Below are positions 4,876 to 5,026 of a stretch of 64,000 nt of DNA, piece by piece. The stretch is taken from NCBI GenBank assembly GCA_003697135.1, contig RFGC01000018.1, positions 124,001 through 188,000 of the forward strand, given 5' to 3'. The notes beneath the pieces are model-generated. The model ran no database searches. It saw only the letters and a program-made list of their open reading frames with translations, and had not been told where the DNA came from. Within the stretch, counting starts at the first letter, position 1. Every line of letters begins with the position of its first letter. Made by a program: the position numbers and the translations under genes. This stretch comes from Acidobacteriota bacterium. Its GTDB lineage: Bacteria > Acidobacteriota > Blastocatellia > Pyrinomonadales > Pyrinomonadaceae.

Positions 4876-4991
4876 ACAAAAATTAAAGACAGGCGAAGCA
4901 ACGTGGGAGTGTGCCGCGCCTGTCAATTCGTGGTTACTGTCCTCACCCCAGCAACCACAAGAGACGGAGGATTCACCAACCGTCTCGGTTG
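4876..4991 (-). ncRNA. candidate small non-coding RNA, about 115 nt
   Basis: Read on the minus strand, a promoter (TTGAAA, 18 bp, TATATT) is followed after about 7 nt by three hairpins. The 5' one is GAGACGG/CCGUCUC (4980-4986 with 4961-4967), which competes with a CAACCG/CGGUUG hairpin (4986-4991 with 4977-4982). The middle one is a GUGGUU/AACCAC stem (4953-4958 with 4930-4935) extended by an inner CAG/CUG. The 3' one is an 8-bp GACAGGCG/CGCCUGUC stem (4917-4924 with 4888-4895) followed by TTTAATTTTT, a convincing intrinsic terminator. The GC-rich stems stand out from the AT-rich surroundings. I could not match it to SRP RNA, 6S RNA, tmRNA, RNase P RNA or a riboswitch I know. Alternatively it is just the 3' UTR and terminator region of the propeller gene. 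Confidence 0.5.
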
Positions 4992-4996
4992 ATTTT

Positions 4997-5026
4997 AATA
5001 TAACAAAATTTTCATTTTTGTTTCAA
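4997..5026 (-). promoter_or_regulatory. minus-strand promoter of the candidate sRNA
   Basis: On the minus strand: -35 TTGAAA (5026-5021), an 18-bp spacer, -10 TATATT (5002-4997). It points away from the propeller gene and into the hairpin block, with a predicted start near 4990. Confidence 0.5.

Follow-up and report, generated by a model that had tools for sequence, protein, structure and literature searches.

The stretch of 64,000 nucleotides (nt) analysed here, referred to as the window, belongs to contig RFGC01000018.1 of an Acidobacteriota genome (G000; class Blastocatellia, family Pyrinomonadaceae; 47 contigs, 2.79 Mb in total) and contains, on its minus strand, a candidate gene for a small RNA (sRNA) of about 113 nt. 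Judged by sequence comparison, compensatory changes in the stems, independence from the neighbouring genes, paralogues and invariant loops show a discrete RNA gene, and this comparative evidence settles the nature of the locus; we infer that it is transcribed. The favoured reading, held with moderate confidence, is that the gene has its own promoter and intrinsic terminator, acts in trans as a regulator and is a member of an undescribed, modular family of Blastocatellia sRNAs.

The original prediction, made from the letters of the window alone, had proposed a promoter, three closely packed hairpins and a terminator in a unit of about 115 nt. All these elements are found at the positions given in Table 1, with a spacer of 18 base pairs (bp) between the hexamers TTGAAA and TATATT. 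The 5′ end was presumptively set 7 nt 3′ of the -10 hexamer. The predicted fold energy is -57.7 kcal/mol, compared with -34.9 ± 3.6 for shuffled sequences (z = -6.3; none of 200 shuffles equals it), and the G+C content of the region, 0.53, exceeds that of its two flanks (0.38 and 0.30), as had been noted. The promoter hexamer match is not significant by itself (4 promoter-like sites per 2 kb, 3.9 being expected), and the terminator of the sRNA is missed by a simple terminator scan on account of its long loop. The sRNA is not crossed by any reading frame of note; since the frames are short, and relatives carry single-base insertions and deletions together with paired substitutions, the locus is non-coding, which bears out the early view that no protein fits.

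In the sister species G001 the sole substantial alignable block corresponds to positions 5028-4890 (87% identity over 142 columns, E = 2e-45); it extends from the -35 hexamer as far as the stem of the terminator, and both flanking genes differ. The conservation of the whole unit beside differing genes thus supports its reading as an sRNA gene with its own promoter, the form in which it had been predicted. Covariation, sought in relatives, is strong: 12 of the 33 base pairs are altered on both sides, giving 48 such alignment cells against 13.9 ± 4.0 in shuffles, and 99.2% of the cells are paired, compared with 38-52% after sliding of the partner. All 19 distinct sequences keep helix 1 fully (100%) paired, and changes on both sides occur in 8 of the 14 pairs of hairpin 3. 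The neighbours of the sRNA in the window are a gene for a BamB-like PQQ propeller protein and a radical SAM gene. The sRNA lies 115 nt past the stop of the propeller gene, on the same strand, and the original prediction had named an element of the 3′ untranslated region of this gene as the alternative; however, the block from promoter to terminator is conserved beside other genes, the neighbours in the sister species differ on both sides, and in relatives that keep the same promoter the upstream gene is usually glmM or another one, so that this explanation appears extremely unlikely.

Most of the relatives compared are metagenome-assembled genomes. By blastn, 53 of 60 relatives were matched at E ≤ 1, same-family matches being nearly all below 1e-7, and identity over the RNA is 82-97% in nearly all same-family genomes; the cultured species Pyrinomonas methylaliphatogenes K22 also has a match. 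Model R1 finds the sRNA in all 29 sampled Pyrinomonadaceae genera and in the Blastocatellia families f2, f6 and f8, and the wider model R2 finds it in 57 of 104 genomes of the class, with weak members in some genomes of genus g9. The form present in the window (type A, Table 1) was undetected in families f3, f4, f5 and f7 and in most of g9; Hfq and sigma-54 genes are present in these groups nonetheless, and the absence apparently reflects losses or strong divergence. No sampled genome outside the class was matched by R1. Outside these groups, about 280 genomes of the phylum were sampled, and they gave a single, borderline match (E = 9e-4). The latter, in genome G211 from another class of the phylum, is GC-rich sequence without promoter or terminator and was taken as chance; so were the Paenibacillus matches L156 and L191, consisting of a 21-base pattern alone (R2, 11.9 bits, E = 0.13). 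A phage origin was rejected, as phage records gave no match to the sRNA. An open-access literature search found no paper pairing Blastocatellia with sRNA, and this class-wide family of modular sRNAs is, on its sequences, to be regarded as undescribed so far. Its deep conservation, which includes a cultured species, offers an sRNA from a major soil phylum that can be tested directly; its invariant loops and the sigma-54-type promoters of its relatives make it a good starting point for the study of RNA regulation in this phylum, for which hardly any has been documented.

In many Pyrinomonadaceae the sRNA is located 3′ of glmM and 5′ of aroB, or of an M3-type peptidase gene and aroB, and in family f2 it likewise lies upstream of the peptidase gene and aroB; these gene names were read from the protein sequences by eye, not by profile search. 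This site is probably the ancestral locus, from which the window copy has moved. Such an arrangement could also indicate a cis-acting leader or attenuator of the downstream aroB or peptidase gene, stranded in the window by a rearrangement. Indeed, many relatives have the RNA 10-220 nt 5′ of one of these genes in the same direction, and the RNA ends in a terminator. However, although the downstream gene is co-directional for 19 of the 21 primary copies in Pyrinomonadaceae, it is so for only 10 of 20 in other families and for only 11 of 19 paralogous copies, which favours action in trans over action in cis. It is convergent in the window and opposite in about half of the other-family copies, with the RNA no less intact there, and this speaks against a cis leader; moreover, no conserved ribosome-binding site or antiterminator is found, and the paralogues adjoin unrelated genes. 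A role in cis is thus very unlikely. In the sister species a divergent tRNA gene (L099:4144-4215, plus strand) is found just upstream of the sRNA.

The original prediction had compared the region with SRP, 6S, tmRNA, RNase P and known riboswitch cores without a match, and Rfam 15 gave none either: nothing in the window exceeds the gathering threshold, and 15 homologue loci gave only tRNA matches. The best sub-threshold score is that of PrrF (RF00444), which has three hairpins as here, but this is at chance level (20.5 bits, where the gathering score is 90; E = 0.27). 6S RNA was rejected, since three separate hairpins are present instead of a long rod with a central bubble, and Rfam gives no match. 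In Listeria, the multicopy LhrC family comprises RNAs of about 110 nt with a UCCC motif in hairpin loops, including the terminator loop, and the blocking of Shine-Dalgarno sequences by UCCC-type loops is established for LhrC, RsaE, RNAIII, SprD and FsrA (PMC4132741). The present sRNA resembles LhrC, and with it RsaE, FsrA and SprD, in its multicopy occurrence, its length of about 110 nt and its C-rich UCCC in loops, that of the terminator included. It differs from them in the lack of any sequence relation at the Rfam level, in having one C-rich loop rather than three, in its extra GGUGAGGA and UGAAU loops and in its host, which belongs to the Acidobacteriota and not to the low-GC Gram-positives.

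The loop motifs UGAAU, GGUGAGGA and C-rich UCCCA/UUCCAC are common among the family members and occur in differing orders, which define types A to E (Table 1). Several genomes are multicopy, with up to 9 matches in one of them. Across all types the stem of the GGUGAGGA hairpin has 99 double-change cells, compared with 28 in shuffles, and its loop is nearly fixed; the set was collected by means of this loop, and its invariance derives partly from that selection. Of 64 terminator hairpins placed after a GGUGAGGA loop, 57 carry the C-rich motif, and the 125 other terminator-like hairpins at the same loci all lack it; these counts take in near-duplicates and homologues, so that a p-value is not to be taken at face value. 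When R3 was run on 297 genomes of the phylum, 14 Blastocatellia genomes were matched, and a single match elsewhere was borderline. In genome G124 (L283, L284, L285) the GGUGAGGA hairpin forms, three times, the end of a different, larger structured RNA (GGUGAGCGCGGCUCCC..GGCAACG..CGUUGCC..CGCCUGCGCUCCC). The second relative in the genome of the window, of type B, holds in its terminator loop GUGGGAG, the exact complement of the window CUCCCAC. Pairing between the two sRNAs would be possible, yet most g9 genomes with type B are without type A, and the idea was set aside.

Table 1. Elements of the sRNA locus in the window, the second relative in the same genome, and the types of the family
Feature	Position	Strand	Basis or description
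-35 hexamer TTGAAA	5026-5021	minus	sequence
-10 hexamer TATATT, extended -10 TG in front	5002-4997	minus	sister species G001 has TATACT at the equivalent site
sRNA gene, about 113 nt	4990-4878	minus	fold, conservation, covariation; scores 136.7 bits with model R1
Hairpin 1, GAGACGG..CCGUCUC; apical loop UGAAU with GG/CC closing	4986-4961	minus	fold and covariation
Hairpin 2, nearly invariant loop GGGUGAGGA at 4948-4940	4958-4930	minus	covariation
Hairpin 3, terminator stem; C-rich CUCCCAC in loop (4909-4903)	4924-4888	minus	paired changes, loop motif
Terminator U-rich tail TTTAATTTTT	4887-4878	minus	sequence
Second relative in the same genome, type B	G000 C45:22085-22192 (L274:2086-2193)	minus	found with R2; loops UCCCC, GGGUGAGGA, GUGUGGGAGA
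Type A (window)			hairpin loops UGAAU and GGUGAGGA, in this order, then a terminator looped by UCCCAC/UUCCAC
Type B (second copy here, G017, some g9)			hairpin loops UCCCC and GGUGAGGA, in this order, then a terminator looped by GUGUGGGAGA
Type C			hairpin loops GGUGAGGA and UGAAU, in this order, then a terminator whose loop is C-rich and A-rich
Type D			only a GGUGAGGA loop and a terminator with a C-rich loop
Type E			UGAAU; C-rich loop; terminator bearing GGUGAGGA; middle loop differs in one of two examples

As a trans-acting regulator, the RNA would be produced, in most of the class, in response to a stress or nutrient signal of some kind, and in the clade of the window more constitutively; Hfq would bind it, and the C-rich loop CUCCCAC would pair with G-rich ribosome-binding sites of mRNAs, blocking translation. 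Of 60 genomes, 59 have a match to the Hfq family, among them that of the window, and the window sRNA exposes its UCCC motif in an unpaired loop, that of the terminator. Since Hfq is widespread, CsrA is rare and UCCC loops are established blockers, pairing in trans through CUCCCAC would be the most likely mechanism. The GGUGAGGA hairpin may act as a common docking site for a protein or as a second pairing loop, and its loop could possibly mask the C-rich loop by UG(a)GGA × UCCCA pairing. Such kissing of loops 2 and 3 was not retained as proven: the UG-a-GGA and UCCCA motifs are compatible in sequence, but both are nearly invariant, and the single possible compensatory case (GUGAGAA with UUCCGC, in G088, L115) is no proof.

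Several observations weigh against this mechanism. The most conserved element is GGUGAGGA and not the C-rich loop, which would fit a protein-binding RNA too; type B has a G-rich terminator loop and carries its C-rich loop in hairpin 1; and the U-tracts 3′ of the terminator are weak in some relatives. In addition, the 120-nt leaders of the Pyrinomonadaceae glmS genes examined, glmS being the one candidate target tested, contain no UCCUCAC and show no complementarity to the GGUGAGGA loop; glmS, considered in view of the GlmY/GlmZ-like promoters and the glmM neighbour, was accordingly discarded as a target.

Some bacterial RNAs work by titration: CsrB and RsmZ titrate CsrA, and GlmY does likewise for RapZ. 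The invariant GGUGAGGA hairpin could similarly bind a dedicated protein, which the multiple copies, up to 9 in a genome, would sequester or recruit. No other element is common to all types; compensatory changes let the stem of this hairpin vary freely around a nearly fixed loop, and its position within the RNA shifts. However, the best-known partner is excluded, as CsrA is present in 4 of 60 genomes and not in G000; a single GGA per RNA, carried by the hairpin 2 loop, is a low number for a sponge, and a CsrA sponge of the CsrB/RsmZ type was rejected on these grounds; furthermore, the C-rich and UGAAU loops would remain unexplained. We therefore regard protein titration or docking as the main function to be unlikely. 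That the loop is invariant and its stem covaries freely suggests a single conserved partner, for which one could fish.

Comparison of the upstream regions shows that the promoter type varies by clade. Among the primary Pyrinomonadaceae copies, 18 of 21 keep TTG(a/c)-18-TATATT, with a spacing of 16-19 bp. In f2, f6 and f8 a -24/-12 element of the sigma-54 type, GGCA-N6-TTGC, precedes the conserved 5′ end UGGGGCAAGAG at a fixed distance of 11-12 nt; its strict form is present in 14 of 20 copies (shuffle expectation 0.04), and three more are one base off (GGCC or GGCG). The same element is found in 10 of the 21 primary Pyrinomonadaceae copies, 7 of which also fit an overlapping TTG-N21-TATATT, so that sigma-54 and sigma-70 promoters would overlap in part of this family; the window copy and its clade have the sigma-70 type only. 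In 26 of 27 copies a palindrome near GTGTAA-N3-TTACAC, with a score of 9 or more out of 12, is present about 80-130 nt 5′ of the -24 element, against 14 of 400 shuffled 95-nt stretches that reach 9, a lenient null with the consensus drawn from the same sequences. A second box often occurs about 22 nt farther upstream; no such box is seen in the window or in G001 (best scores 8 and 7). The sigma-54 gene is present in 58 of 60 genomes, this one included, and we infer from the layout a sigma-54 promoter with a near-dedicated enhancer-binding activator. A search of 18 whole genomes for the combined promoter pattern returned 30 matches. Loci of this RNA account for 19; the other 11 do not exceed the reversed-pattern control (23), and no further regulon of the putative activator was identified among them.

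The sigma-54-like promoter with tandem upstream palindromes is probably the ancestral state, and the change from sigma-54 to sigma-70 around an unchanged RNA would represent a clean natural case of regulatory rewiring. A broader and rather doubtful proposal, offered tentatively, is that of a class-wide superfamily in which UGAAU, GGUGAGGA and UCCCA are re-ordered like protein domains, the GGUGAGGA hairpin being the site of a matchmaker or adaptor RNA-binding protein and the founding member having a near-dedicated sigma-54 activator. Overlapping sigma-54/sigma-70 promoters are found for GlmY and GlmZ in Enterobacteriaceae (PMC4098024). The likeness concerns the overlap in part of the Pyrinomonadaceae, not in the window, and the ancestral sRNA locus, which happens to adjoin glmM; unlike GlmY and GlmZ, the sRNA has no Rfam sequence match, glmS leaders lack the GGUGAGGA complement, and the window copy is without the sigma-54 element that other families and almost half of the primary Pyrinomonadaceae copies possess. 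The parallel is best seen as an analogy of control only, the sRNA being by its sequence unrelated to them.

Type A copies in the metagenome assemblies are frequently found no more than about 300 bases from the end of a contig (G007:C216 and C51, G013:C76, G130:C319, G122:C245, G129:C133, G036:C226, G127:C5), a position which suggests that near-identical copies or strain variants break the assembly there.
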